IMG/VR virus record: IMGVR_UViG_3300025141_000366
Span: 1 to 34,853 of that record
Direction: 5' to 3' (one strand)
Source: a virus
DNA length: 34,853 nucleotides
This document shows positions 17,091-34,541 of the stretch, piece after piece. Each line of letters begins with the position of its first letter. Within the stretch, counting starts at the first letter, position 1. Position numbers and translations under genes: made by a program. The notes beneath the pieces were generated by a model, which was not told where the DNA came from, searched no databases, and saw only the letters and a program-made list of their open reading frames with translations.

Positions 17091-18566
17091 ATGGCGACAC
17101 TTTCCGTACCAAACCCAACCTTTACATCAGGCACCACAATCGTTGCCTCGGAGATGAATGCAAACTTTGCGGCTGTTGTAGACTTTGTTAATACGACGCC
17201 CGCTCTGTTACAACTGACGGGCGGCCAGACGATCACTGGCGCTATTCAGTTGAACAGCACTTTGACGGTGGGGTCGACGGGTGCTGGGCATGATGTTAAA
17301 CTGTGGGGTAACACCGCAGGTGACTATTTTGAGTGGGATGCTGATACGAACAAGTTGATCATTGAGGGTACGAATGGCACAACAGCACTAAATGTGTCGG
17401 ATGGCAATGTTTGGGTGGAGGACACAGTTACTGCGGGCGCTTTCTCTGGTCCCCTCACAGGTAACGTTACAGGTAATGTTACAGGTAATGTTACAGGTAA
17501 TGTTACAGGTGATGTTACGGGTGATGTAACAGGTGACCTCACAGGTGATGTTACGGGTGATGTAACAGGCGACGTAACAGGTAACGCTGATACCGCTACT
17601 GAGGCCACCAACGTCACAGTTTCGGCTAACAACACAACGGATGAAACGGTTTATCCAACATTCGTTGACGGTGCCACCAGCACGCAGGGTATTGAGACAG
17701 ATACAGGTTTGACGTATAACCCCAGCACTGGTCTGCTGACTGCCACCGCGTTTGCGGGCAATATTACGGGTGATGTAACAGGTAACGCTGATACAGCCAC
17801 GGAATTGGCGACAGCCCGCGCTATCAACGGTGTTGATTTCGATGGGTCAGGGGCCATTACAGTAACGGCTGCTGCTGGCACACTTACTGGCAGCACGTTG
17901 AATTCGGGGGTTACAGCGTCATCGCTTACCTCAGTGGGTACGCTGACTTCAGCCACAATTACTGGTGATCTGACAGTTGATACGTCCACACTCAAGGTGG
18001 ATGCAACAAATAACCGTGTCGGCGTCAATACCGCTGTACCTTCCTACAACCTTGACGTTTACGGCAACGGAGGCACAGGCTACGTTGCCCGCATCATGGC
18101 GGCTGCTGGCACAGAGAACATGCTTATAATTCGTGCGGGCGCAGCGTCTCCCAGCACTAACTTTGCCCAGTTTCTTGACAGTGGTGATGTTGAACACGGT
18201 GAGATCGTGGGCTACGGCGTCGGTGTCCAATTCAATTCGGCGTCTGATCGACGCCTGAAGCATTCCATTACTGATCTGAATATGGGTTTGGAAACCGTAC
18301 GCGCGTTACAGCCTCGGTCGTTCCTCATGCTTGGCAGCGAAAACCTTGGGACACAGGCAGGGTTTATCGCTGACGAGGTTGAGACTGTGGTGCCTACGGT
18401 GGTATCTGGTGAAAAGGACGCAGTTGAGGTTGTGCCCGCTACCGATAACGAATCGGAATATGAACGGGTACGTCCTCAGAAACTTAACATGACGGGGCTT
18501 GTCCCGCATGTGGTTGCCGCTATCAAGGAACTTGACAGCCGCCTTGCGGCCATTGAAGCCGCGTAA
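17091..18566 (+). CDS. Tail fibre 1 with C-terminal S74 chaperone, 491 aa
   Basis: The shaft contains a run of GNVTGNVTG..GDVTGDVTG repeats (residues about 123-164), probably a beta-helical or triple-stranded stalk. GVNTAVPSYNLDVYGNGG (about 311-328) is the segment common before fibre heads. The last 110 residues (from SASDRRLKHSITDL, about 381) have the Peptidase_S74 intramolecular chaperone pattern, with the Ser and Lys of the self-cleavage dyad and GFIADEVETVVP. S74 domains trimerise the fibre and cut themselves off. It should be a receptor-binding protein. A second S74 fibre follows. Confidence 0.75.
   Translation: MATLSVPNPTFTSGTTIVASEMNANFAAVVDFVNTTPALLQLTGGQTITGAIQLNSTLTVGSTGAGHDVKLWGNTAGDYFEWDADTNKLIIEGTNGTTALNVSDGNVWVEDTVTAGAFSGPLTGNVTGNVTGNVTGNVTGDVTGDVTGDLTGDVTGDVTGDVTGNADTATEATNVTVSANNTTDETVYPTFVDGATSTQGIETDTGLTYNPSTGLLTATAFAGNITGDVTGNADTATELATARAINGVDFDGSGAITVTAAAGTLTGSTLNSGVTASSLTSVGTLTSATITGDLTVDTSTLKVDATNNRVGVNTAVPSYNLDVYGNGGTGYVARIMAAAGTENMLIIRAGAASPSTNFAQFLDSGDVEHGEIVGYGVGVQFNSASDRRLKHSITDLNMGLETVRALQPRSFLMLGSENLGTQAGFIADEVETVVPTVVSGEKDAVEVVPATDNESEYERVRPQKLNMTGLVPHVVAAIKELDSRLAAIEAA
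17457..17590 (+). repeat. 12-bp tandem repeat in the fibre gene
   Basis: The unit ACAGGTAATGTT, drifting to ACAGGTGATGTT, repeats about ten times and encodes G-N/D-V-T. A related stretch recurs at about 17761-17795. Identity is highest in the first four units, pointing to recent slippage-driven length change of the fibre stalk. Confidence 0.8.
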
Positions 18567-18790
18567 TGGGTATCGAATGGGTCGGAGCAATCGGCGCGAT
18601 AACAGCAGCGATAGTGACTGGCCTGTTCAACATGGTACGCAAAACTGTGCGGGAAAACACGGAACAACATGCGCTGAATCAAGCGAAACTGGAAGCAATA
18701 GGAACTGATGTGATTGAAGTGAAAGGCGATGTGCGAGAGGTGCGTTCGTCGCAGCAGCGTCATTTGGAGTGGCACGCGGAGGTGGCCTGA
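18566..18790 (+). CDS. Small membrane protein, possible holin, 74 aa
   Basis: ATG at 18566 overlaps the fibre stop (TAATG). Residues 1-25 (MGIEWVGAIGAITAAIVTGLFNMV) form one membrane span, followed by a basic stretch (RKTVREN) and an amphipathic helix (VIEVKGDVREVRSSQQRHLEW). This is the layout of DUF2746-like and single-span holin-like proteins of actinophages. It is placed between two fibres rather than next to the amidase, so another role such as a membrane-linked virion factor is possible. Its stop overlaps the next start. Confidence 0.5.
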   Translation: MGIEWVGAIGAITAAIVTGLFNMVRKTVRENTEQHALNQAKLEAIGTDVIEVKGDVREVRSSQQRHLEWHAEVA

Positions 18791-20661
18791 TGGCCGTCTA
18801 TAAACCAACTCATCGTTTCACGGGTGCAAATGCTCGTTCAATGGAGTATGAGTTGCGGAAGATTTCTGAAACCATTGGTGGTATTCCGATAGGTGACATT
18901 ACTGCTGTCACGGCAGGTAACGGCTTATCTGGGGGGGGAGCGTCAGGGGATGTCACGCTGGCGCTGGACATCAACGAATTGTCTGTTGCTACAGTCGCTA
19001 CGGGTGATTATGTTGCGATTGAGGATATTACAGATAATGGTTCTAAGAAGGTTACAGCCCAGTCCATAGCGGATTTAGCCCCGCAGGGTGACATTACTGG
19101 GGTTACTGCTGGCACCAACCTGAACGGTGGCGGTACTTCTGGCGCCGTAACATTAAATTTGGATACCAATATCACGGGCGACATCACGTTTGACACGGAT
19201 GTGTTGGCTGTGGATACGACAAATGATCGTGTCGGTATCGGCACCGCCAGCCCGTCAGCCATGTTGGAAGTGGGTGGCACTACTGATGGGGAGATTCTGG
19301 TCGTTTCGAGTGAAGGCCGAACCGCCACGCTGGAAGCAGACGACAGCGACCATTACATCCATGTCGGGTCAAAATCGAATCACACATTTGCGATTGTCAC
19401 AAATGATGTTAGGTGTATGACGTTCCTCACCTCGGGCAACGTCGGTATCGGTTATACTTCACCTTCTTACAAGTTGTCTGTCAACGGAGCGATGGCTGCT
19501 GCCTATAACACGAACACGACTTCTTATCTTGGGCGTGCTGCTGTTGGCTATATGGGTTCTTCTGATTGGGCAGCGTTTGCTCATATAGACAGCAATACTA
19601 CGTCTAGTTACGCCTTGATACAGAATTCTTCGGGGAGGACGGCTGTCAACTCTGCAAGTGGTCAAGACATCGCATTTGCTATCAACAATGTTGAGAAGAT
19701 GACAGTTGATTCGGGCGGCAACATTGGTATCGGCTATACTTCACCTTCTTACAAGTTGTCTGTCAACGGGGCAATGGCTGCTGCCTATAACACGAACACG
19801 GCTTCGTTCTTTGGGCGTGCCCGAATCGGCTACGCGGGATCATACTCAGATTATGCTTCGTTTTCGCATCTGGATCAAACGGGAACAGGTTACGCGATAC
19901 TTCAATATGCCAACGGGAGCACATTTTTGAACGCGGCAAGCGGTCAAACTATGTATATCCGCAATGGCAACAGTAACCGTATCACTGTGTATTCCGACGG
20001 CGATGTGGATACGACGGGCCGTTGGGGCATCGACGGTACCCACCACAACTCTTACGCGCTTATCGTCCGTGGCACTCTACCCACCTATATGACGGGCGAA
20101 ACCTACGAGGTGGGCACCTACGCTAACACGACGGTAGGTGGAAATGAAACTCGCATCACCGCCTCGGGCCGCAAGTTCCGCTTCACCTCGTCGGGCCGTT
20201 ACAAGACCGACGTAGAAGATGTGGTAGACGCATATGCCGACGAGGTGCTGAATTTGCGCCCCGTCTGGTACCGTTCACTTTGCGAAAATGACCGTAAGGA
20301 TTGGTCCCATTGGGGGTTGATCGCTGAGGAGGTCGGTGAGATTGATCCGCGTCTTGCTCAGTATCAGTACATTCCGCTTTTCAACGATGACGGTACGGCT
20401 CAGTTCTCGCAGGTTCATGCTACAGATGATGACGGTAATCTGCTTTACGAACAGGTGGAAGTCCTTGACGATGACGGCGACTTTATGTCATACGTTGACG
20501 GTGACCCCATTATGGAGGACGGGGAACAGTTGTTTGAAGTCGATGAGAATGGTGACCACGTTTTACAGGTCGAAGGCGTAAACTATAATTCGATTGTACC
20601 GTTGCTCATAAATATTCTCAAGCGGCACGATGTACGCATCGAAGCGTTGGAGGCTGCGTAA
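18790..20661 (+). CDS. Tail fibre 2 with C-terminal S74-like domain, 623 aa
   Basis: The ATG at 18790 has GGAGG seven bases upstream and overlaps the previous stop. The N-terminal third has GLSGGGASGDVTLALD-type repeats. Two almost identical modules begin GIGYTSPSYKLSVNGAMAA (about residues 220 and 314), a recent in-frame duplication of 94 codons. The C-terminus from SGRYKTDVEDVVDAYADEV (about 468) to the end fits an S74 chaperone (LRPVWYRS..WGLIAEEVGEIDP). Asp/Glu-rich insertions (DDDGNLLYEQVEVLDDDGD) interrupt it. It is a likely receptor-binding fibre. Confidence 0.75.
   Translation: MAVYKPTHRFTGANARSMEYELRKISETIGGIPIGDITAVTAGNGLSGGGASGDVTLALDINELSVATVATGDYVAIEDITDNGSKKVTAQSIADLAPQGDITGVTAGTNLNGGGTSGAVTLNLDTNITGDITFDTDVLAVDTTNDRVGIGTASPSAMLEVGGTTDGEILVVSSEGRTATLEADDSDHYIHVGSKSNHTFAIVTNDVRCMTFLTSGNVGIGYTSPSYKLSVNGAMAAAYNTNTTSYLGRAAVGYMGSSDWAAFAHIDSNTTSSYALIQNSSGRTAVNSASGQDIAFAINNVEKMTVDSGGNIGIGYTSPSYKLSVNGAMAAAYNTNTASFFGRARIGYAGSYSDYASFSHLDQTGTGYAILQYANGSTFLNAASGQTMYIRNGNSNRITVYSDGDVDTTGRWGIDGTHHNSYALIVRGTLPTYMTGETYEVGTYANTTVGGNETRITASGRKFRFTSSGRYKTDVEDVVDAYADEVLNLRPVWYRSLCENDRKDWSHWGLIAEEVGEIDPRLAQYQYIPLFNDDGTAQFSQVHATDDDGNLLYEQVEVLDDDGDFMSYVDGDPIMEDGEQLFEVDENGDHVLQVEGVNYNSIVPLLINILKRHDVRIEALEAA
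19444..19820 (+). repeat. Internal duplication in fibre 2
   Basis: The 95-base segment at 19444-19538 recurs at 19726-19820, exactly 282 bases on, with only a handful of differences. The intervening parts are also similar at the protein level (SSGRTAVNSASGQDIAFAIN and NGSTFLNAASGQTMYIRNG). So the whole 94-codon module was copied and the shaft end is much better conserved than the rest. Confidence 0.85.
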
Positions 20662-20864: not shown

Positions 20865-21278
20865 ATGGCTTACGGTGACAATACGGCACGAGCCTCTGGC
20901 ATTGGGAGGCGTGTAACCGATTACGGTTACGGCTTTGACGATATTCAGCGTGCCCGTGAGTCCACGGGCCGCAGTAGCGCATTGAACCGTTTCAACGTTT
21001 CTAAGCAGTTTCAGGATGCTGCACGTTCTCTTGGGGGCAAGTTCAATCAGCGCGGCATGGCCGATTCTGGTTTACATGCGCGGGGGCGTGAGCGTTTGGC
21101 GGGTCAGGCTGAGTTGGCTCGTTACGGTATTGCGGCTCAGTCTGAGGAGGCTGGTCGGCAGTTGGATCGTCAGCGTCAGCAGATTGAGGAACAGTTCTAT
21201 GGCGGTACGATGTCGGATCAGATTGCAGATGCGTTGCGACGCTTCGGTGTCGTTTCGACGTTGGGTGGGGTAGTCTGA
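20865..21278 (+). CDS. Probable internal virion protein, 137 aa
   Basis: ATG at 20865. The protein is rich in Arg, Gln, Ala and Gly (GGKFNQRGMADSGLHARGRERLAGQAELARYGI), followed by a charged helix (EEAGRQLDRQRQQIEEQF). Segments of the type F-x-x-RG-x-x-x-SG-x-x-x-R-A are common in short-tailed phage internal proteins. Its stop overlaps the next start (TGATG), so both products are likely made together and may form part of the ejected apparatus. Confidence 0.55.
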   Translation: MAYGDNTARASGIGRRVTDYGYGFDDIQRARESTGRSSALNRFNVSKQFQDAARSLGGKFNQRGMADSGLHARGRERLAGQAELARYGIAAQSEEAGRQLDRQRQQIEEQFYGGTMSDQIADALRRFGVVSTLGGVV

Positions 21279-24019
21279 TGGGTGGTTTCGGTGCAGGGTT
21301 TACCCTTGACTACGAAGACATTTTCCGCTCGGGGGGTCCGAAGCGAAACGGTGTCTCACAGTACGGTTCCGTTATGGGGGATTTGGAGTCCTTCAGTCCT
21401 GAGGGTAAAGCAAAGTTTAACGAACTTTTTGGTACGTGGAAACAAAACATTCTCGGAGCGCCGTCGGAACTAGGGGCGCACTGGAGTACGGCACAGAAGA
21501 GTGCTACAGAGGCTCTGAAGGGTATGCGGGAAGCGCAGCAGGCGCAGCAGTGGACGCAGTCTCCTGATGGGATACAGTGGTTGGAGCATGTTGCCAAGCA
21601 GCAAGGAACTGTTCAGCAACCTGACCACTCGCGTAACCCCGAAGGAACCTTAGACGCCTTGTACCCCTACGACTCAGCGGCCTCGTCCTCTCCGACGGGT
21701 GGGTGGTCGGACACGGACCCATCAGCAAGCGGCAACTTACAGGGGGTACAGAATGAACTGGTTCGAATGCCCTCCTTTATTAACTGGGATACTTACTACA
21801 ACGACGAAGCAACAAGAAGGCAAGTCAACGACGAATTTTTGCGAGAAACGGCGCTAGTTGGCATTGGGCAGGGACCAGATCGGAACGCCAACGTAGACAC
21901 CTTGAACCTAGCCGAATGGGGTGGCCCAACAGATACTGTGGCACCTTTGAGTGCGGATACGTTTACGTCGTCTTACGATCCGAATGCGTATAGTTCTTAC
22001 CAAGCCGAGTTTGCGGCTCCTACGAATTTGCAGGACGCTATCACCGCTGCGTATGCGGGGCTGTCAACAGACGCTACGACACAACTTGGAGGGTTGGGGA
22101 CACAGGATTTGACAGGTCAGATTGACACGGCATACGATGCATTGGGTACTACCGCTACAGAACAACTTGGCGGTTTGGAAACGCAGGACTTTACAGATCA
22201 GATTCGTGCATTGGTTGAATCAGGTCGTGTTGACATACGCGATTTGAACACTCAACAGTTGGCTGCGTTGCAGCAGGGTGAAGCACGCCGCATGGGTCAG
22301 ATTGGTGACATTCAGGGTCAACTTGAGGGCCAGTTGTCGCAACAGGAACAGTACCGTCAGGACATTCAACGGCAGGTAGCGGAGCAGGCTGCTGGTCGGG
22401 CTGGTCAGATGACTGCCGATCAGGCAGCCCGTATTGAGGCTGCTCGTGGCGCATTGGGTAGTCAGGTTACTTCGGAGTTTGAAGAGGTTGCGGCGCTTAC
22501 AGGTGGTTTGACGGGTTCGCAGGCGCAGTCTACGACTGCGGGTATGGATCGTTTGGCTCAGGTTGCCAATCAGGGTGCGGCGCAGCGTTTGGCTGCGCCT
22601 GCCATGTTGGCTGCTGAGGCTCAGATGGCTGTAGGCGATGAGAAGTTCCGTTTGGAGAACGAGTTGGCACAGCAGTTGGCGACGAGTATGGCTGAGTTGA
22701 ATGCACAGGAACGTGAGCAGGTGTTCAACGAGGCGATGCGTCAGGAGCAGTTTGGTATTGAACGAGATCGTGCCTTGGCGAATGCGCTAACGTCGATTGC
22801 TCAGAACCGTACTGGTGCGCAGTTGACGGAGCAGGGTCGTCAGGAACAGTTCGCTACTGAGCGTGATCGTGCTTTGGCGGAGACTCAGTTGACTATTTCG
22901 GGTCAGGAAACGGCTGCTGGGTTGAACGAACAGCAGCGTTTGGCAGATATTGCGCAGCGTGAGGGTGAGATTGGACAGCAGCAGGCGTTCTCGTCGCAGG
23001 AGGCTGCTAATGCACGAGACTTTGCGGCGAACCAGCAGGCTGAGGATCGCAGGTGGCAGGCGATTGCGCAAGGACAGTCGCAGAAGTTCGCGGCGCAGCA
23101 GGCAGCGGATCAGCGCGAGTGGCAGCAGGTTCAGACTGAGAACAACATGTTGTTCCAGAGGGCGGTTACTGCCGATGCGCAAGAATTTGCATCGGCTGAA
23201 GCCAAGTTGGATCGGTCGCTCAGGCGTCAGGAATCGGCTACGCGGTCGCGGGATGCGATGTTGGCTAGGTTGCAGGACGCTGACCAGTTCAGGATTACAA
23301 CTAATTTGACGATGGGTGCGCAGATGACGGCAGCGAGCCAGTGGCAGAAAGAATATGATCTGACTAAGGATACTTACGAAGATCGGGAAGCCGCCGAACT
23401 AGCGGAAACGGAGAAGTTGGTTGCGAACGCGGAGATGTTGGCTGCGTCGACGGGTTACACGGTGGAAGAGATTCTGGCGATGCCTGCTTCGCAGGTACAG
23501 AATTTGGCGGCAACTGCTGTCAGTGCAGGTCTGGATGCTGCGGAAGCGAACAAGTGGGAAACTGGCAGTCGGGATTGGTTGATAGATCAGGGCTTTGATC
23601 CTGCGGTGGCAACCGAGTCTATTGATTATCGTCATTGGAACGAAATGGTTGACTTCTACAATGACCGCGAAGCGCAAGGCTTCGATCTGACCCCCGATCA
23701 GGTGGCGAAGAGGAAAGACTTCAGTGACAACATAACGAACTTTGACACTAAGCATAGTCATTCATCTCTTGGACCTTCTGACTTCTTGATCGATGTACAG
23801 GGTGCGATGCATATGGCCCAGCAGGCGTCGCCAATATATTGGAACGAATCAATGGTAACGCCAAACTATCACGGGTTTGACTATGGAGGGTACACAAACT
23901 CTGCACCCGATACGGTGAACGGTCAGTCGGTGATGGCCGACGGGACGGGTTTCTATAGCGAAATGGGCGACAATTGGGAAGAGCCATATGCCGCTGTAGG
24001 TACTGCCACTAGCGGCTAG
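21278..24019 (+). CDS. Large Gln/Ala-rich coiled-coil virion protein, 913 aa
   Basis: The N-terminal 250 residues are mixed and polar. From about residue 250 a pair of related units appears (TAAYAGLSTDATTQLGGLGTQ and TAYDALGTTATEQLGGLETQ). Residues about 330-710 are a long helical region rich in Gln, Ala and Glu, with repeated QEQFxxERDRALA elements (about 490 and 525). The end is globular and Gly/Tyr-rich. No tape-measure membrane segments or lytic motif are visible. In a short-tailed phage this fits an internal core or ejection protein. It directly precedes the giant gene. Confidence 0.6.
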   Translation: MGGFGAGFTLDYEDIFRSGGPKRNGVSQYGSVMGDLESFSPEGKAKFNELFGTWKQNILGAPSELGAHWSTAQKSATEALKGMREAQQAQQWTQSPDGIQWLEHVAKQQGTVQQPDHSRNPEGTLDALYPYDSAASSSPTGGWSDTDPSASGNLQGVQNELVRMPSFINWDTYYNDEATRRQVNDEFLRETALVGIGQGPDRNANVDTLNLAEWGGPTDTVAPLSADTFTSSYDPNAYSSYQAEFAAPTNLQDAITAAYAGLSTDATTQLGGLGTQDLTGQIDTAYDALGTTATEQLGGLETQDFTDQIRALVESGRVDIRDLNTQQLAALQQGEARRMGQIGDIQGQLEGQLSQQEQYRQDIQRQVAEQAAGRAGQMTADQAARIEAARGALGSQVTSEFEEVAALTGGLTGSQAQSTTAGMDRLAQVANQGAAQRLAAPAMLAAEAQMAVGDEKFRLENELAQQLATSMAELNAQEREQVFNEAMRQEQFGIERDRALANALTSIAQNRTGAQLTEQGRQEQFATERDRALAETQLTISGQETAAGLNEQQRLADIAQREGEIGQQQAFSSQEAANARDFAANQQAEDRRWQAIAQGQSQKFAAQQAADQREWQQVQTENNMLFQRAVTADAQEFASAEAKLDRSLRRQESATRSRDAMLARLQDADQFRITTNLTMGAQMTAASQWQKEYDLTKDTYEDREAAELAETEKLVANAEMLAASTGYTVEEILAMPASQVQNLAATAVSAGLDAAEANKWETGSRDWLIDQGFDPAVATESIDYRHWNEMVDFYNDREAQGFDLTPDQVAKRKDFSDNITNFDTKHSHSSLGPSDFLIDVQGAMHMAQQASPIYWNESMVTPNYHGFDYGGYTNSAPDTVNGQSVMADGTGFYSEMGDNWEEPYAAVGTATSG

Positions 24020-24023
24020 CACT

Positions 24024-27000
24024 ATGCCTTACAACCCGATTGCCGACTACCGCCCCGCCAAACCCAGCGGGCCTCCCAGTCGAAAGAACCAGCCCGCTAC
24101 TCCCAGTGTACGCGATGCAAGCGTTGGTGCGTTGCGTCAGGTACGTCGCAACGCGGAGCCTCAGTGGTCGATTCGGGATATGCAGCGGGCGTTGGAAGCC
24201 GCAAACATCGGCACAGATAAAGAGCCGTATAATCCGATTACGCAGCATGTAGACGTTTCTGGTTACGATATTGGAGCGTCGAATTATATGTCGTCCCCGA
24301 CGACGGGTAGTTCTGGATACGGCGGATTCCTGAGTGGCCTTGGTGGTATTGTTATGTTGGGTTTGACTGCGGCAGGGAAGTTTTTGAGCGCGTCTTCTAC
24401 TGTTGCCCATGTTGCTTTAGATAGTTTCCAAAGTAACATTTCTGCTACTAGGCAGATAATAAACAATCTCAATTGGCGAAGTAAGTCGAACTGGTGGGAT
24501 AACAACGCAAAACCTATCAGTTATAGCGATAGCAGCGAACCCTTGTCTCAGTATTGGGATGACATGAATTTGCTGGGTGGGGTAAGGGTACCTACTCCGT
24601 TTGGTGAATTAGACATTGGGGCAATGATCGGGCAGGACACCGCCGAATTTTATACATTTGGTCGCCTTCTTCACGACGAGGACTGGTTACAGGACTATGG
24701 GTCACTTGTCCAGTTTACGTTACCTGTAAACAAGGTGGGTGGTTTGTTTGGCAAGGAGTGGGAGGATTGGCATTGGGATGTCACTCCGTCGTTCTTGGCG
24801 GCGGCGCCGCTTGATCTGGCGTTGGACCCGCTGGTATGGATGACTGGGGGACTTTCCAAACTTGCTACTCCAGTCCGCGCGCTTGTTAAGACGGGTGCAG
24901 CGCAGACGCTTGGCGCTAAGTTGACTCGTAAGGTTATTGAGGAGGCTGTTGAGAAAACGATAAGGAATCGTATTGGTGCCGCAGTCGGGATGTCTGCGTC
25001 AGACGCGGCTGCGGCTGCGATGTCAGGTACGGCTATAAAATCTCATATGGATGAGATAGTTACCAGAGTTATGGCGCAGGCCGAAGAGGCCGCGAAGATA
25101 GTGCCACAGTCTAGCGGATTGCGCGCAGGAAAGGCCGCTAAGTCCGCGAAGCACCGCGAAGCAGGTCTTGGGGAGATGGCTGACCGCGTGGATGAGGTTA
25201 TTGCCAAAGAACTTGAAGACCTTTTCCAAACGCTTGGCGGGTCGTATGGGGTTCAGGTTGCGACGGGTAGGGGCGGGTTGGGGGAGAACTTGGCAGACTT
25301 GTTTGAGGTGGGCATTGTCGGGGCCAGTAGCACGAAGGGCGTGTCGGCGGTCGGCACTGCTCAGGCTCGCAGGGTGGCGAAGATTTGGAAGAAACTTAAC
25401 TTGAACGCTGCGGGGCAAACTGCTGATGAGTTTGCAGCGGCGGCAGTGGGTACTGGTAAGAGGCTTATCGGAAAGGAAAGCCAAAAGTTTATTCCCCTCT
25501 TTGACGACGCAGCGGTAACGAGTGTAAGAAGTCGCCTTACGCAAGGTGGTAGAAACGCTCACCTTGACACCATTGACGACATGTCGTTGTCGTTGGGTTT
25601 CAGGGTTCCTTTCTCGGGCAGTATCGGTCGGGCTACTGCCCGACGGCTACCAGTACTAAAGAATGCGGAGTGGGCGCACAGCGGTCGACCTATCGGCATT
25701 AGCGTTCTTGGTGGTTCTAAGGTGGCACGAGATGCTGCCGTTTTGGGTGTTCCTCGCTCATTGCGTTACTTGTTCAGTGATGTAGCCGCTGGACTGGGCA
25801 CCCGTGTTACTCGTGGAAAAATGAGGGGCCGCTTTGGGTCGCAGGTTTTGGGTACCAGCAAGGTGGCGGCGAAGGCGCGGCTTGATGAATGGATCGCAAA
25901 GGGTGCATCTCCTGCCAAGGCAAAGAGGATACAAGTTCAGGCTTTGAAGGATATGGTAAATGATCCTTTGCTGGATGCGGGTTTGCGCCTTGGGGCCAAG
26001 AACACCATATTGGATATGCAGCGTGGCAACAGCATGATGCATCGGGCTAGGAACATATTTATCAGGAAGTCGGCGTCACGCGGGGAGGGGTTTCGTCAAA
26101 AGGCTCTTGACTATTTTGGTGGGCGTGCGACTCCTGCGCAGATAAAGACATATGGGGAGGCTATTCCAGATGCTGCGGAGCAACTTGGTGCGCGTCTTAA
26201 GGGTGGGGAAGTTTTTGTTCCTGAGGGTGCTGCTGAACGGATGATTCCGACTTCGAATGGAATTGATATTAGTGAGGAAACGGCGATGGAGGCGCTTAAC
26301 TGGTTTAAGGAGGTTCGTATTGAGGCACATGCGATGGCGGGGATGGACTTTATTCCCGAGCGTGAGTTTTATATGTTTCGCATGGTGGGAGATGATGCGC
26401 AAGAGTACATGCAGTTCAAGCAGAACTTTGACGGGCTAGACCATGCACAAAGAAGCAAATGGGACCCTTCGGATATTGAGAAGGCCAGAAGGTACGGAAG
26501 CCCTGATGAAGTAGCCGCACAGGGCGGCAAGGGCACTATGAGCGACAACTTCCTTGGGGAACAACTCTACAACCCCTCTCCGCCCGACGGAATTCCCGCC
26601 ATTCCAGAACAGATCAACGAAATTATGATCCGCCATTTTGGCGAAGGCTGGGATGAACTGCCCCAAATGTACAACCGTGACATCTTTGACATGATGAATC
26701 GGTATGCAGAAATCGTGTCTAGGCGTGTAGGCGAGGTACATACTGAGGTTTTGATGCGAGCAGATCGTGTCCTTACCGATAAGTGGATTACGCAATTGCA
26801 TATTCCAAGCGATGCCATACACAAGGCGGCGCTTGTAGTCAGGCAGCGACAAATTGCACTTGACCAGTCACGTATCAAGTTGCTTGACAAGATGCGGTCG
26901 CATCTGTCGTCCACTCCTGCTGAACGCAAGTTGGAATGGGCAGCCGTAGAAAACCAAGCAAAGGTTTACAACTATCTGCAAAACGAATTGGACAATGCGA

Positions 27001-30000
27001 GAAACGCTCAGGCAGCCAAGCAGCGCGTGGTTGAAGCCCAGCGGGTTAAGTTTGAAATAAGTGAAGGGCGGGTCAAGCAACTAGAAGCAGACGTAGCGAC
27101 TATACAAAAAGAGATCGATGACGCCCTGTCGATGTCAGCAGAAGCAAAGGGCGCTGCGGCGAAGAAAGAATTCGACCGCTTGACGGTGTTGGAGAAGGAG
27201 AGACAAGACCTGTTGGATGAGGTCAAGCGTTTGGAGTTGGGTGGCCCCGACGATGTGGCGGTCTTGAACTCTAGTACTGTTTACGGTGCGTTGTGGGAAG
27301 AGGCGCGTTCTGCGGTTGCAACAAAGGTTTGGTTGGAGAGAGCCTTGGTTGAAGCCTTTGGCGATGTGGATACGGCCAAGGCGTTTGCTGCGTGGTATGC
27401 GAAGGAGTGGGATGCGACGGCGAAGCGGTTGGGTCCGCAAGCGGTGACAGGTGAGTCGGGGTTGGAAGCCACGAACAAGGCTGTCGCTGACGCCATGCAG
27501 GACTCTATCTTTACTCATCAGCGCGCTCAGGGGTCACCGTTTGCGATGCAGGCACGGGATGGGCGTCTGTTTTTTGAGCATTTGTCGCACCAGTTTGACA
27601 ACAACCATCTTGGTGAGTGGGTGGCGATGGCTGATCCTGAGCGGTTTATGATGCCTGTGACGCCTACGGGTAGGTATGCGGGTGCGTCTCATGCGGTGTT
27701 TGAGGCGTTGGATTTCTTGGATACAGAGGTGACTCGTATAGTTCGTAGGTTGGAGGAGTTGACGGTAAAGTACACGACGGAGGTGCCAGAACTTTCTGCC
27801 AACTTGGCGGCGCGGAAGCCTCCGCGTGCAACGATGACGGAGAAGGGGCAGGCTGCTTGGGCGGAGGAAGAGATTGCGCGGTTGGAGGGCACTCATCCTT
27901 CTTTGTATACGGCTGAAATGAAGGCCGAGGTTGCAGAGTTGCGGGGGTATGTCAAGTATTTGGAGGCGCCAGAGACTCCTGCGGTTATTGATCGGTTTGC
28001 GATTCCTACGCCTGAGGCGTTGGAGGATGCGAAAAGGGTTATTGTTGAGGCGTTTGAAAGTTCTGATGCTGTTGCTGCTATATCGTCAAAGGAGTTTGAT
28101 GATGCTGCGCGAATGCATTTGGCGTTGGTAGGCGATAAGCCAGTTCTGCGAGTTAACGATGTTGGTGATGTGGATGCGTTGATTTCGGCTGCGAAGGGGT
28201 CGTTTGCGGCTCGTGCGCGGGCGAAGGGGGTAGAGATTGCCGATTCGCCGCTTGGTGATGTGCGGTTCAAGATTGGGGATTCGTTGACGGATGAAACGGG
28301 GGAGATTGGTTTGTCGGCGTATGTATTGTTGCAGCGATTCCGCGCTCAGGTAACGCGCGGGATACGTGATGGTGCGTTGCCGCGTACTGCTCCTGTCAAC
28401 ATTGAAAGTTTGGTTGCGGCTGTTGATGACCTTACGGATTTTGTGTATAGGTCAGAGGTTGCATTTAATGGCAAACGATATTTGATGACTGAGTATCACG
28501 ATTTTGGGGAGATGGCGGCAGAGACTGCCGCCGATGCCGTCTATCGTGAGTTGAATATTCCTGTTCGTAATTCGTGGGGTGACGTTAGTAGCGATGGCAG
28601 GATGTGGAGGGTTCAGGAAATAGACGAGTTGGAAAATATCGTGGCGATTGATCCCAATGTCGACTTGATGAACTCAAAGATTATTTACGGTGAAGACGCG
28701 AGTGCACAGATTGTCTCTATGGATAGCAAGGTTGGGGCAGGACAGACTGGTGTGAACTCTGCTTCTCGTTTTGAGCAGGGGTTTGCTGCCGATATTTTGT
28801 TGGGGCATCAGGATGTTATGGGTCTGGATCTGAGGCATCTTGGTTTGACTTCCGATGGCAGGATCACGAGACTTAGCGTTGAAAAAACATTTGGCAACTG
28901 GGCAGACCCTCCGATTCTTGGGCCGCGCATAGGGCAGCAACGAGTGGTGTCTTTGAACGTTCGACGCATGACCGATGCCGAACTGGGTGCATATTCCGAT
29001 GAGGTTGCGGAAAAACTTAGTACACGTTCCTATCTCCAAGACGCAATGGACGAAACTCTCGCACGGGGTGAGGACGAGTTGAGGGCAGGTTTGTTCAATC
29101 ATCCATTGTGGATGGAACGTCGGATGCATTTGGAACAGGACTTGATCTATGCTAATGATGAGATGGCGTATCGGGGGTTGAAGTGGGAAGGTGACCACGG
29201 GTGGGTTAGGCGCGATAAAACGTACGATCTTGAAACGTGGGCGGAGAGGGAGGTTGCCCGTCAGGGTGTTCCTCCGACTGATCGTATTACCGAGGTTGGT
29301 TATGGAGAGTTCGGTGACGATGCTACGTTCCGCGAATTCTTTGAGTATACAGAGAGAACTGGAGCGGCTGAGAAATCAGCGATTGATGAACCATTCTCAG
29401 CAGAAGCAACAGCATTGAGTAGGGCTGATCCTTATGATTGGGAAGCATTCAGTCGCGCCAGAGGCTATACCGAAGAAGAAATATCGGATTTCAGGCGTTA
29501 CCTTGAAACAGAAAAGAAAGTACGTGCCGCGCATCCTGATGATCCAGACTTCACTGCTGCTGTCGCACGCGATATAGAGCAAACGCCTTCCACTAGTCCA
29601 GTGGCTGCGTTTGAGGCGGGGCATCGGCGGGCGCAGCAAATTGAGGGACCGTTAACGGCTGACGATGTTTTGGATATTCAGGCTCTTGTGACGGGGCGTA
29701 GAGGAGCGTACGGTCAGACGCTGGCGGAGATGCAGAGCGAAGCGGATGCGTTGGCTGCCTTTTTGGGGAATCGTGAGTACATGTTCTTCGATTATACCGA
29801 TACTCTGCTGATGGAGGGCACGGACTTCCATCACTCCTTCAGTGAGTTACGTAAAACTTTCTACAATAAAAACGACCCCGCAAAGTCGTATAGACCGCAG
29901 CACGATCACGCAATGTCAGCAAAACTGCGAGATGAAGCGGAGGAGTTTCTTTCTCAGTTGGAGGAAAAGATCGCTTATGCGCAGAACACTGGAGGGTCTA

Positions 30001-33000
30001 CTGCTGATCGTGGGTTCAGGACGACAGAAGTCCAAATTCAGGGTGGAGCAGATGTGCCGTCGCTGGCACCGCCGCCTGCTGCGGAGGTGCCACGTTTGAT
30101 GGAGGGGTTGATGGCATCGGGGCTACACGCCGACGATCCGCAAGTATTCATACGAGAGTTTTTGAAGATTCATCCGTTTGCGGATGGGAATGGACGTACC
30201 GCTGCTATTCTGTTGAATCATCTCAGTCCTGCTGAGAGTGGGTACAAGTTGCTACCTGATTATTTCGGTACGGGGTTTGTTGGTGAGCCACCTACGCCGA
30301 TTGGACCGTGGGGCCAAAGGGTAACAGACGCATCGTTACAGGGCGGATACGTAGAGCGTGTAGGGACCGCAAGGCAGCATGGAAGCCTTGCAAACCCAGT
30401 AGAAATTACAATCAGACCACTACCCCAAAACCTTGCAGAAGATTTTTTGGGTATGGGAAACCTTCCACCTCATCAGCGCGTCGAAATCCTCTGGGACTAT
30501 TTGGGGGCGCCTCCATCGGCAATGGGAGAGCGAACGGCAGGCGCTCGTGCGGGGCTCAAACGGATGGCGGAAATAACGGATGAAATGTCGGCAGAAGGCA
30601 TTTTGGTTACCGCTTCCGTTGACGAAGATGCTACTGCCTTACGCAACCTGTATGCAAAAGCAGGGTTTAAGGAAATAACACACTATGACGATTCAGGGAT
30701 GATCTTTATTGCAAAGTTTCCTGAACCTGTCCAAATTCCACACGTACTAGACGACTTCGCCAAACTGGAAGGCAAAGGCATCGAAGGTGTCGGCAAGGGT
30801 GAGCAGTTCAGGAGGGGTGTGGATAACATTCTGGCTGTACGCGCTAAATATGGTGGTTGGCGGGAGATGTTGGCACATGCGCTACCTGTGGGAGCGCAGT
30901 CTGATGAACAGATTCGGCGTTTGGCACTGTTTTTGGAGACTCGCACGGAGCAGTTGGCTGCGATTGCTGATCGTCCGTATTTGGTTGGTAAGGAGTTGCT
31001 TGGTCAGCAGCAGATGCAGGCTGCTGGCGCTAAGTCTGAGTGGAATTTGATTCGGAGTGAATCGCGGGGTCATGGTATTAGTGTGGAGCCGACGTTGGAC
31101 CCGATGCAGGTATCTGGTCGTGTGGGGGCAGCGGCTAGGGGCACCGATCAGGCGCATTTCTTGGAGGAAGGCACTCAGGTGTTGCCGTGGATCGACGGAA
31201 GCGGCATCAATATGACTCCTCAGACGATGGCGTACGGCGGCGAAAACGCGTTCGAGCGCAGTGACTTTATTCGTATGGTTATTGATTTGAATGCCGACGC
31301 ATCCAATATCAAGTTGTACGGTTTCCAACCTGCTGACCCTAACCTCGTTCGTGCCCGACAGTTGCTTGTTAAGTTAGGTGACGACAATATGACGGCTGAA
31401 ACTCTCGTGGAAACGTTAGATCAGTTAACAGACTTGATGCCGAGGCCGTACGGAAAAGTGAGTCCTTATAAGCAGGTTAGTCGGGAGGGGCGTTTGGCGT
31501 CTGGTATCGGGGAGCAGACGCTGGACATGTTGGATCGCGGGGGTGACGATTTGTTAGATGAGTTGCTGCGATTCGCTAATCCTAAACAACGTAAGACGAT
31601 AACACTTGTACGCGAAGGGGGGGAAGTAGTCGAAGAGATACTTGACTCTGCGGCAACCACCCGAACCATAAATGCGTTTAACAGAGTGCGGGCGATTATG
31701 AGCAACCCTGCGTTGGCGGAGAAGTTTCCTGCCTATAGTCTCTCGCAGCAGCGTGGGCTGATGCGAGAGGTACTGGAATTTGTTTCTTGGCAAGAAAACC
31801 GTTACGCTCGCAGACTCGTGGACGACGAAGGGTTGGGGTCACTTTCTGACGCGATTGATCGCTACTTTGTGCACAGAAACAAGGACTTGAACCCGAATGG
31901 CTACGCCGAAGCAGTCGCTTCGGCAGAGGCAGGTGCGGCTGCGCACGCAAATGAACTGATTGGAACTGTTCACTTACGGTATATGCAGAACCAAGAATTG
32001 CGTGCAGGAATGAAGTGGGACGAATGGCTTGAACTAAACGGGTCCATTACCAACACCGCCGCTGTACGCAAGGCGGTCGCACGAGCGGGGTCTTTCGATC
32101 CCGTGATGATGCGACCGTTCCTTGCCCGATACCCTGAATCGTCACTCATCGGGCGCCTGTGGCAACAGTACCATTTGTCCTTGGCGGGCGATGGGTATTC
32201 GGCAACGGCATGGATGAACGCGACTGATCGTTGGACGATCAGCCCGTTCATCAAAGACACAGAGAACATTGTTGGTCGCCGTAGCGCACGACCCGCGACG
32301 GTCGCAGACGACCCGCTTGACGAGGCTGGGATGTGGCTTGAAGAGCAGGGCATGGCGGGGGCGTGGGCAGAAGATAGCGTCCTGTCCGAAGTGCAGCAGG
32401 CACAAAACGAATTTTCCGTCAACGTGACGTTGACAAACCCGTTGGGTGTGCGCCCAAGAATATTCATGGACGACATGGAGCGCACGATGGCACCTGACGA
32501 CTTTGCAAACACGCTTGCCAATCCCATAGAACAGAACCTTGTTGACCCAACAGCATTTGAAAAGACTTACCGTCAGGCAGCCATTGACGCTCTGGTTGAA
32601 GACAACGGCATAGGAGAACTTTCACGTAGGCGTGTCGTCGCTGACGATGCTCTGGAGAAGGCAGTTGAGAAGCAGAAGATTGTTACCGACAACCTGTGGC
32701 TAATGGAGCGCGATTGGAACGCGCACTTGGAAACCGTGAATCGCCTGTCCCGAGAGGTGGACAGCGCGAAGGAGTTGTTGCAGTTGCATGAGTGGGCCAT
32801 CGAACGACGTAACCTGTTTGCTAAGGCGATGGCAAAATTGCAGACGCTGGACCCTGAGTTCAAGTTCAAACAGGGAGGTGTGAACGCTTTGTCGGAAGCG
32901 TATCAGGATTTGGAATCGACTATACGCCTGTTGGGTATGGCCGATTTGGAAGAATCTAAGTTCATTCTACAGACGCTGGCGGAAGGTGGAAGTTTCCAAG

Positions 33001-34541
33001 GTGCCCTTGACGAACTATTGGATGTAAGCAGCAATGTAGCCAAACTGAGAAATATGCCCGAAGCAGTACCCATGATGGATCGTGCATGGCGTGCAGGATG
33101 GAGGCCGATTGGAGTCAAGTCGCAGGGTCGTGAAGCCCTAGTGGAGTCCATCGTTGCTGCCGACATGTACCACGCACGCGGGGGCATGGGCAAGTTCTTG
33201 GGTCGTGGCGGATACTATGACGCAGTTCATAACGTATGGAAGGGATATGCCATTCTGTCGCCCGGTTTTTGGGCGAGAAACTATATGGGTGGTATGTTCT
33301 TGAATTATTTGCATGGGGTTGACATCAGTAGTTACACTCGGTTCATGCGAGCATATAATGCTTTGAAGATTGAGCAGGCTGTTGCGCAGGGTAAGATCAG
33401 GCGTGCTGAGGGACGTAAATTGTTGGACAAGGCCACGGGCGGCAAGGTTAGTGCCGACGACATTTCGATTGTACGTCAGATGGAAGAAACGGGTGCGTTT
33501 GGTCAGGGTCAAGCGGGGGTGGAGTTCACGCCATCGACGGGAGGTCGTGGCGTGATAACGGTTGCTGGGAAACGGATAGATTTAAACAAGTTTAACCCGT
33601 TCTCTAGTCGCAACGTGGCTCTCAAGGCTGGGCATAGCATGAACATCAAGGTGGAAACGTTCCTGCGTGGATCGATTGGCTTCGACACTATGAAGAAGGG
33701 CGGCACGCTTGGGCAGGCGATGGACGACATTTGGAAGTATCACTTTGATTACGATGACCTGTCTAGGTTTGAACGCGGTGTCGTTAAGAAGATAGTTCCA
33801 TTCTATACGTGGACACGTAAGTCGCTGCCTTTGATAGCGGAACAATTTATGATGAAGCCGTACAAGTTCAATCGTTACAGGATGGCGGTAGATGCGATCA
33901 GCGAGGACGACTGGTCTGACTTCGGAGTAGTACCAGATTGGATGGTTCGGCAAGGGGCCGTACCGTTGGGTCACAAGTTCGCAGGGGAACACATGTGGAT
34001 GATACCCGACCTTCCCATGCGCGGCTTCTACGAATTAGTCAACACCCCGACAAGAGCAGACATGTCACCCATAGAGCGTATCGGAGCGGTGGGAGAAGCA
34101 CTGTCGTCTATGGTTACACCGTTGATTAAGGCACCTGTTGAACTGTTGACAAACAGAAATATTTGGAAGGGGTATAGTTTCAACGGAAGTTTAGAACCCG
34201 TACCAGAAGCGTTTTCATGGGTGCCCGGTCTGATGCCTGCACTAGATGCGATGGGGGCGGCTCAGAAGACGCCAAAGGGCAATTGGGTGATGAAGGACAA
34301 TTGGTTGCATTCGATGACGCAGTTGGTGCCGACGCTTTCGCAAGCGCGGCGCCTGTTCCCTGACGAGGAACGGTATCAGCATCGTTTGTTGTCGTCATGG
34401 ATGTCGTTCATGTTTGGTCTTGGTTTGCGGACCAACACCTCGTGGGAGCAGCAGCAGGAACTGCGGGCACGCTATTATGAACAGATGGATAAGGATAGAG
34501 AGATGCGTGACATCTACAAGGCTGACATGGGTATACGTTAG
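24024..34541 (+). CDS. Giant multidomain virion protein with kinase-like, Fic and GNAT-like domains, 3505 aa
   Basis: A single frame of 10.5 kb. Residues about 95-120 are hydrophobic (FLSGLGGIVMLGLTAAGKFL) and might insert in a membrane. Residues about 930-1075 form a coiled coil. Around 1453-1636 lies a kinase-like domain (KRYLMTEYHD, ETAADAVYRELNIPV, AADILLGHQDVMGLD) with poor catalytic residues. Around 1990-2075 is a Fic domain with HPFADGNGRTAA at 2050-2061. Around 2124-2238 is a GNAT-like segment (VEITIRP, ATALRNLYAKAGFKEI). The last 450 residues carry PFYTWTRK (about 3259) and a helical end, resembling ends of other giant phage polyvalent proteins. The position after the internal proteins suggests a virion or ejected protein; host targets are unknown. 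Confidence 0.65.
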   Translation: MPYNPIADYRPAKPSGPPSRKNQPATPSVRDASVGALRQVRRNAEPQWSIRDMQRALEAANIGTDKEPYNPITQHVDVSGYDIGASNYMSSPTTGSSGYGGFLSGLGGIVMLGLTAAGKFLSASSTVAHVALDSFQSNISATRQIINNLNWRSKSNWWDNNAKPISYSDSSEPLSQYWDDMNLLGGVRVPTPFGELDIGAMIGQDTAEFYTFGRLLHDEDWLQDYGSLVQFTLPVNKVGGLFGKEWEDWHWDVTPSFLAAAPLDLALDPLVWMTGGLSKLATPVRALVKTGAAQTLGAKLTRKVIEEAVEKTIRNRIGAAVGMSASDAAAAAMSGTAIKSHMDEIVTRVMAQAEEAAKIVPQSSGLRAGKAAKSAKHREAGLGEMADRVDEVIAKELEDLFQTLGGSYGVQVATGRGGLGENLADLFEVGIVGASSTKGVSAVGTAQARRVAKIWKKLNLNAAGQTADEFAAAAVGTGKRLIGKESQKFIPLFDDAAVTSVRSRLTQGGRNAHLDTIDDMSLSLGFRVPFSGSIGRATARRLPVLKNAEWAHSGRPIGISVLGGSKVARDAAVLGVPRSLRYLFSDVAAGLGTRVTRGKMRGRFGSQVLGTSKVAAKARLDEWIAKGASPAKAKRIQVQALKDMVNDPLLDAGLRLGAKNTILDMQRGNSMMHRARNIFIRKSASRGEGFRQKALDYFGGRATPAQIKTYGEAIPDAAEQLGARLKGGEVFVPEGAAERMIPTSNGIDISEETAMEALNWFKEVRIEAHAMAGMDFIPEREFYMFRMVGDDAQEYMQFKQNFDGLDHAQRSKWDPSDIEKARRYGSPDEVAAQGGKGTMSDNFLGEQLYNPSPPDGIPAIPEQINEIMIRHFGEGWDELPQMYNRDIFDMMNRYAEIVSRRVGEVHTEVLMRADRVLTDKWITQLHIPSDAIHKAALVVRQRQIALDQSRIKLLDKMRSHLSSTPAERKLEWAAVENQAKVYNYLQNELDNARNAQAAKQRVVEAQRVKFEISEGRVKQLEADVATIQKEIDDALSMSAEAKGAAAKKEFDRLTVLEKERQDLLDEVKRLELGGPDDVAVLNSSTVYGALWEEARSAVATKVWLERALVEAFGDVDTAKAFAAWYAKEWDATAKRLGPQAVTGESGLEATNKAVADAMQDSIFTHQRAQGSPFAMQARDGRLFFEHLSHQFDNNHLGEWVAMADPERFMMPVTPTGRYAGASHAVFEALDFLDTEVTRIVRRLEELTVKYTTEVPELSANLAARKPPRATMTEKGQAAWAEEEIARLEGTHPSLYTAEMKAEVAELRGYVKYLEAPETPAVIDRFAIPTPEALEDAKRVIVEAFESSDAVAAISSKEFDDAARMHLALVGDKPVLRVNDVGDVDALISAAKGSFAARARAKGVEIADSPLGDVRFKIGDSLTDETGEIGLSAYVLLQRFRAQVTRGIRDGALPRTAPVNIESLVAAVDDLTDFVYRSEVAFNGKRYLMTEYHDFGEMAAETAADAVYRELNIPVRNSWGDVSSDGRMWRVQEIDELENIVAIDPNVDLMNSKIIYGEDASAQIVSMDSKVGAGQTGVNSASRFEQGFAADILLGHQDVMGLDLRHLGLTSDGRITRLSVEKTFGNWADPPILGPRIGQQRVVSLNVRRMTDAELGAYSDEVAEKLSTRSYLQDAMDETLARGEDELRAGLFNHPLWMERRMHLEQDLIYANDEMAYRGLKWEGDHGWVRRDKTYDLETWAEREVARQGVPPTDRITEVGYGEFGDDATFREFFEYTERTGAAEKSAIDEPFSAEATALSRADPYDWEAFSRARGYTEEEISDFRRYLETEKKVRAAHPDDPDFTAAVARDIEQTPSTSPVAAFEAGHRRAQQIEGPLTADDVLDIQALVTGRRGAYGQTLAEMQSEADALAAFLGNREYMFFDYTDTLLMEGTDFHHSFSELRKTFYNKNDPAKSYRPQHDHAMSAKLRDEAEEFLSQLEEKIAYAQNTGGSTADRGFRTTEVQIQGGADVPSLAPPPAAEVPRLMEGLMASGLHADDPQVFIREFLKIHPFADGNGRTAAILLNHLSPAESGYKLLPDYFGTGFVGEPPTPIGPWGQRVTDASLQGGYVERVGTARQHGSLANPVEITIRPLPQNLAEDFLGMGNLPPHQRVEILWDYLGAPPSAMGERTAGARAGLKRMAEITDEMSAEGILVTASVDEDATALRNLYAKAGFKEITHYDDSGMIFIAKFPEPVQIPHVLDDFAKLEGKGIEGVGKGEQFRRGVDNILAVRAKYGGWREMLAHALPVGAQSDEQIRRLALFLETRTEQLAAIADRPYLVGKELLGQQQMQAAGAKSEWNLIRSESRGHGISVEPTLDPMQVSGRVGAAARGTDQAHFLEEGTQVLPWIDGSGINMTPQTMAYGGENAFERSDFIRMVIDLNADASNIKLYGFQPADPNLVRARQLLVKLGDDNMTAETLVETLDQLTDLMPRPYGKVSPYKQVSREGRLASGIGEQTLDMLDRGGDDLLDELLRFANPKQRKTITLVREGGEVVEEILDSAATTRTINAFNRVRAIMSNPALAEKFPAYSLSQQRGLMREVLEFVSWQENRYARRLVDDEGLGSLSDAIDRYFVHRNKDLNPNGYAEAVASAEAGAAAHANELIGTVHLRYMQNQELRAGMKWDEWLELNGSITNTAAVRKAVARAGSFDPVMMRPFLARYPESSLIGRLWQQYHLSLAGDGYSATAWMNATDRWTISPFIKDTENIVGRRSARPATVADDPLDEAGMWLEEQGMAGAWAEDSVLSEVQQAQNEFSVNVTLTNPLGVRPRIFMDDMERTMAPDDFANTLANPIEQNLVDPTAFEKTYRQAAIDALVEDNGIGELSRRRVVADDALEKAVEKQKIVTDNLWLMERDWNAHLETVNRLSREVDSAKELLQLHEWAIERRNLFAKAMAKLQTLDPEFKFKQGGVNALSEAYQDLESTIRLLGMADLEESKFILQTLAEGGSFQGALDELLDVSSNVAKLRNMPEAVPMMDRAWRAGWRPIGVKSQGREALVESIVAADMYHARGGMGKFLGRGGYYDAVHNVWKGYAILSPGFWARNYMGGMFLNYLHGVDISSYTRFMRAYNALKIEQAVAQGKIRRAEGRKLLDKATGGKVSADDISIVRQMEETGAFGQGQAGVEFTPSTGGRGVITVAGKRIDLNKFNPFSSRNVALKAGHSMNIKVETFLRGSIGFDTMKKGGTLGQAMDDIWKYHFDYDDLSRFERGVVKKIVPFYTWTRKSLPLIAEQFMMKPYKFNRYRMAVDAISEDDWSDFGVVPDWMVRQGAVPLGHKFAGEHMWMIPDLPMRGFYELVNTPTRADMSPIERIGAVGEALSSMVTPLIKAPVELLTNRNIWKGYSFNGSLEPVPEAFSWVPGLMPALDAMGAAQKTPKGNWVMKDNWLHSMTQLVPTLSQARRLFPDEERYQHRLLSSWMSFMFGLGLRTNTSWEQQQELRARYYEQMDKDREMRDIYKADMGIR

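Follow-up and report, generated by a model that had tools for sequence, protein, structure and literature searches.

The window, i.e., the whole stretch of DNA that was analyzed, is a virus record of IMG/VR, 34,853 bases long, in which a portal-terminase phage encodes, within its virion gene block, a giant protein of 3505 amino acids. Its gene is one uninterrupted open reading frame of the plus strand, as had been predicted from the letters of the sequence, and its ATG stands a few bases past the stop of the preceding gene. We consider the frame real, since a stop-free run of this length does not arise by chance and homologues align in-frame along most of it. No internal DNA repeats were found within the gene. 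The features discussed below are the following:

20865..21278, plus strand: 137-aa gene, first of a conserved triplet
21278..24019, plus strand: 913-aa gene, second of the triplet
24024..34541, plus strand: whole ORF of the 3505-aa giant protein, in a single frame
24024..27383, plus strand: N-terminal scaffold (aa 1-1120), coiled-coil-like around aa 930-1090
28002..28904, plus strand: kinase-like region (aa 1327-1627), by family model and fold match, catalytic residues replaced
28917..30800, plus strand: cargo stretch (aa 1632-2259), holding Fic and GNAT; 31-57 aa long in most of the close relatives that are complete
29238..30293, plus strand: Fic module (aa 1739-2090), starting at WAEREVARQGVP and ending with the Fic core
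30171..30197, plus strand: Fic catalytic motif HPFADGNGR (aa 2050-2058), intact
30336..30743, plus strand: predicted GNAT-fold domain (aa 2105-2240), by structural model and fold matches
30801..33200, plus strand: middle scaffold (aa 2260-3059), containing the Nudix site of relatives and the GNAT site of relative L005
33201..34538, plus strand: conserved C-terminal core (aa 3060-3505), with FDYDDLSxFER and PFYTWTRK

On the same strand, the giant gene is preceded by terminase large-subunit pieces, a portal of SU10/P22 type, a major capsid protein and a SU10-type adaptor, and between the adaptor and the giant gene come a 515-aa protein, two S74 fibres and then the 137-aa and 913-aa genes. The 515-aa protein has a homologue in MW202803, where it is called "phage stabilization protein"; MW202803, a podovirus according to its record, has a portal 41% identical to that of the window and a 1312-aa protein with the C-terminal core in common with the giant. 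The order fibre/137 aa/913 aa/giant is conserved in relatives L020, L037 and L039, and the order 137/913/giant is present in several further relatives. The original prediction had placed the gene where short-tailed phages keep ejection proteins, and its location among virion genes, in a small-medium-giant arrangement, agrees with this. The terminase large subunit of the window is divided between two ORFs that overlap and differ in frame (8768-9655 and 9649-10314, within 8768-10314); it is one gene in MW202803, and the split is either a sequencing frameshift or genuine. The two adjacent fibre-type genes (17091-20661) each carry an S74 endosialidase-chaperone domain near the end. A genome scan for the host of the phage yielded just four metagenome-assembled contigs, whose labels belong to unrelated phyla.

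The scaffold and its family

Relatives were found by searching IMG/VR with a profile of the C-terminal core, which gave about 200, and the best 80 of these were examined. Searches of IMG/VR with the whole 3505-aa protein, or with the Fic-GNAT piece alone, gave no matches, and the relatives were reachable only through alignments and motif patterns. Among the best 80 of about 200, the relative ORFs with a complete left end measure 1499-3399 aa and the closest relative of the window is L005, with 53% identity over the last 812 aa (L005 is incomplete, its N-terminal part being missing, and L085 is the same contig). Identity to the window over the core is about 27-65% among relatives. The close relatives (2578-3001 aa) have in addition the N-terminal part (from about aa 204 onward), the kinase-like region and the middle part in common, at about 20-30% identity. 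In the tree built from the core, L005 is the partner of the window, and L094, which bears a Fic domain (L209 is the same contig), belongs to a separate 14-member clade with a SH-aLRT support of 99%. For L208, L210 and L214, found after this tree was made, the best matches were members of the clade of L094.

The core also exists in cultured phages: in the Cellulosimicrobium phage DS1 and, more distantly, in the Microbacterium phage Shocker. The 1783-aa protein of DS1 has a core 24% identical to that of the window, outside which no significant alignment with the window was obtained, and gp37 of Shocker is 23% identical to the core of L072, another relative. Both proteins are half the length of the window giant, and each is encoded last before the endolysin genes.

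The protein was described in the original prediction as having a hydrophobic N-part, which holds only in a mild form: there is one borderline segment (aa 103-121, mean hydropathy 1.51) and no strong transmembrane segment in the giant protein. The HExxH motif of zincin metallopeptidases is absent from it and Pfam detected no lysozyme-type domain. Comparing the scaffold with known ejection proteins (T7 gp16, the N4 virion RNA polymerase and other solved virion proteins) gave neither a PHROG nor a PDB sequence match.

Kinase-like, Fic and GNAT-fold domains

The three modifying-enzyme folds that had been proposed for this chain were all recovered, in the proposed order. The first, the kinase-like domain, matches over aa 1327-1627 a model built from the relatives (E 1.4e-16). 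Its predicted structure is of modest confidence (mean pLDDT 62); aa 1465-1631 of the model find as best match the H. pylori kinase CtkA (Z 9.0, rmsd 4.3, 144 residues), and kinase-superfamily folds, including HipA/HipT, dominate the list of matches. Aligning the domain against PDB sequences produced nothing useful, and the assignment rests on fold comparison together with conserved motifs. In the relatives these motifs are near-invariant (GxNxGG, YVK, E, NWDxxGxGxDNI and RIDNG), and the catalytic residues are kept in 30/31 aligned rows for K, 27/30 for N and 31/32 for D. The window is the sole aligned row with an altered Lys or last Asp: T1489 stands for the ATP-binding Lys, H1605 for the catalytic Asn and S1618 for the metal-binding Asp, and the glycine loop is missing. 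These replacements predict that the domain is a pseudokinase. Kinase motifs are partly lost also in L060, L066, L058 and L062, so that decay seems to have occurred more than once.

The second fold is a Fic domain, an identity that its sequence makes certain: PF02661 matches aa 1999-2067 with an E-value of 1.9e-8 and 35.5 bits, above the curated cut-off of 24, and the motif HPFADGNGR is intact. The domain is part of a longer module whose elements (WAxxEVxRQGxP, a (L/I)TxxDI helix, GYRTTxV and HPFxDGNGR) occur also in scaffold members L094 and L208, and which in the window are spread across aa 1739-2090 with extra stretches in between. The Fic core is found as well in L210 and L214, both truncated, and the catalytic motif is intact in all four. 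The window thereby has its Fic in common with four members of a distant subfamily, at identities of up to 59%. A sequence resembling the [S/T]xxxE[G/N] pattern, TLLMEG at aa 1927, precedes the catalytic His by about 120 aa; it is probably not a class II inhibitory helix, as it comes after the LTADDVLDIQ helix, in a stretch that the relatives lack.

The same phage Fic type occurs in several protein contexts. Free-standing phage Fic genes (L211-L213 and L219/L220, the latter being L086/L087) are separate genes of about 200 aa, 43-53% identical over the core and preceded by an element of WAxxEVxRQGxP type; they are possible donors of the module. A 3343-aa phage ORF (L216, 251-10279) has pentapeptide-like repeats and this Fic type at its C-terminus, with no match to the C-terminal core of the window, and L215 and L217 encode similar, truncated proteins. 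Known Fic enzymes mostly transfer AMP onto hydroxyl side chains of proteins, which makes AMPylation of a host protein the default guess. We propose that the Fic domain of the window modifies a host protein, most likely by AMPylation; it could also be inactive, or act during assembly.

The third fold is supported by a structural model. The model of aa 1891-2263 has a modest mean pLDDT of 54, with values of about 65-75 across most of the GNAT part. With this part (aa 2105-2234 of the model), 49 of the 50 best Foldseek matches are GNAT-type acyltransferases (probability about 1.0, E-values not below 0.001), and the best PDB match by VIA is 6bfh (Z 10.1, rmsd 2.8, 112 residues), which supports a GNAT fold. 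The same domain is present also in L005, L074 and L094. At the position of the acetyl-CoA loop ([R/Q]xxGx[G/A]), the window has a non-canonical RTAGAR (aa 2170-2175), and the loop is unconserved in these three relatives. With the catalytic residues of the kinase lost and the cofactor loop of the GNAT non-canonical, the expectation that the protein would deliver several host-modifying activities finds no support in the form given, and some of the cargo may be vestigial.

Variation of the cargo among relatives

Past the kinase, which ends at about aa 1625, the window has about 630 aa containing Fic and GNAT before the scaffold resumes at about aa 2260; in this place, the complete relatives L009, L010, L015, L019, L020, L031 and L066 have 31-57 aa. 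Elsewhere, near the equivalent of aa 2335-2390, L044, L047 and others bear an intact Nudix domain (Pfam E 7e-11 in L044), whose box looks degenerate in L021, L058 and L062. The GNAT of L005 occupies a third site, flanked by the positions equivalent to aa 2667 and 2694. A survey of related giants for effector domains swapped at the same positions had been proposed; cargo indeed differs among the relatives, but at several sites rather than the same one. The lack of Fic and GNAT in most complete close relatives, the Nudix at another place and the displaced GNAT of L005 together suggest that the cargo is exchangeable, and the best explanation of these sequences would be that enzymes are loaded at several scaffold sites and gained and lost as modules. 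ADP-ribosyltransferase-like segments were also seen by eye in L066 (about 7850-8150, VFHGT...GLFIAPTQADAARYG) and in the middle of L078 and L081 (ITVYR...EAEVLI); Pfam found nothing in them and neither did a PDB sequence search with L066, and we do not claim this activity. Similar ideas for aa 2370-2440 and 2700-2830 of the window were dropped, having no support.

The same pattern could have another history, in which an ancestral giant with kinase, Fic, GNAT and Nudix lost different parts in each lineage, with no exchange. We find this unlikely, although it has something in its favor: Fic is followed by GNAT in the window as in L094, and the Fic tree gives no firm nesting of the window within the L208 group. 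The different scaffold site of the GNAT in L005 and the absence of the kinase-like domain from the Fic carriers of the L208-type subfamily speak against it, as do the identities. The window and L208 are 59% identical in Fic versus 28% in the scaffold core, when L208 and L214 reach 55% and 41%, and pairs within the L208 group 55-75% and 41-61%, respectively; this gap fits a transfer of the module between scaffolds, or may be accounted for by a higher intrinsic conservation of Fic. The third-position GC, which is 0.43-0.49 for Fic/GNAT and 0.54-0.63 for most of the scaffold, argues weakly for a recent acquisition, as that of the kinase is likewise low (0.50). Loss and exchange concern the history of the cargo, and both are compatible with the functional reading given below.

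The giant might be purely a structural or DNA-ejection protein, whose enzyme folds are domesticated remnants serving as bulk, linkers or assembly surfaces and acting on nothing in the host. The missing catalytic residues of the kinase-like domain of the window, the unconserved acetyl-CoA loop of the GNAT and the degenerate Nudix or kinase motifs of some relatives are what such remnants would look like. Nevertheless, the Fic motif is intact in the window, L094, L208, L210 and L214, the kinase residues are retained in nearly all relatives and the Nudix boxes are intact in many; as catalytic residues conserved in this way hint that the chemistry is under selection, we regard a purely structural role as improbable.

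A proposed ejected enzyme carrier

We think it likely that the giant is ejected as a carrier, with the Fic domain as its active cargo in this phage. It would be the largest member of a set of three ejection (internal virion) proteins in a short-tailed phage, its N- and C-terminal parts forming a conserved scaffold and its middle part holding the inactive kinase-like domain and the cargo sites. It would be packaged together with the phage DNA, leave through the tail as a string of loosely linked domains and refold once inside the bacterium; there, before phage genes are expressed, its Fic domain would modify, most likely AMPylate, a host protein. Packaging, ejection and refolding, as well as the activity of the Fic domain, its target and the benefit to the phage, are what we infer, and ejection is suggested by gene position and architecture, not by sequence similarity. 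Podoviral ejection genes form an operon of a small, a medium and a large gene (PMC8954989), and like gp14/gp15/gp16 of T7 and P22, the window triplet is an adjacent small-medium-large set following portal, capsid and tail-type genes, a match that points to ejection proteins. So does the position of the core at the end of a large gene directly before the endolysin genes in DS1 and Shocker. The window giant differs from the gp16 group by its size (3505 aa versus 609-1337 aa, PMC8954989), by having no detectable sequence similarity to it and no lysozyme-type domain that we could find, and by the presence of modifying-enzyme folds. Ejection of a protein this large has a precedent in N4, which ejects, along with two partners, a virion RNA polymerase of about 3,500 residues (PMC12633501) and which resembles the window in size, in being one of three, in its loosely connected domains and in having an enzyme inside. 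The giant itself is not an RNA polymerase of N4 type as far as Pfam and sequence searches tell, neither of which gave a match.

Alternatively, the Fic and kinase domains could act late in the producing cell, in virion assembly or in the exclusion of rival phages. Being located among late virion genes, the gene would yield an abundant product late, but fusion to a conserved scaffold in an ejection-gene arrangement would be needless for such a role, which free-standing phage Fic genes could already fill; we give this possibility very little credence. The original prediction had seen here a candidate for an undescribed system, whereas large multi-enzyme proteins of phages and conjugative elements, predicted to be injected, are already described as polyvalent proteins (Iyer et al. 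2017, PMC5512222). The window giant resembles them in being very large, in combining several unrelated modifying-enzyme folds per chain and in being encoded by a portal-terminase phage. Their make-up is variable and kinases and GNATs are among their listed domain types, the likeness of the kinase to that of the window being by listed type only, and NUDIX occurs once in the main text, as a neighboring or fused domain (PMC5512222). Unlike the window giant, they frequently, though not obligatorily, have a HExxH zincin. The search for polyvalent-associated Pfam domains gave none above cut-off and one sub-threshold LPD22 match in L044. The main text of the polyvalent study contains neither Fic nor AMPylation nor HipA, and its supplementary files may list Fic (PMC5512222). 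Among the papers searched there was no report of a phage-injected Fic, which does not prove its absence, and the free-standing Fic genes (L211-L213, L219/L220) share the Fic type of the window as separate genes. The best reading is thus an ejection protein of the known polyvalent kind with exchangeable cargo, in which the Fic cargo may be the new part.

More tentatively, and with somewhat more doubt than conviction, we suggest that in a family of uncultured podoviruses the largest ejection protein has become a chassis that can be re-loaded, with fixed ends and several loading sites, on which Fic, GNAT and Nudix are exchanged between lineages and through which the phage injects an enzyme that modifies the host, in this case an AMPylase, ahead of gene expression. 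If true, Fic would join the enzymes that phages may bring in with their DNA. The family allows cargo and scaffold to be separated by comparison, and because the cultured phages Shocker and DS1 bear the core, the injection and the enzymatic roles of giant multi-domain phage proteins become directly testable.
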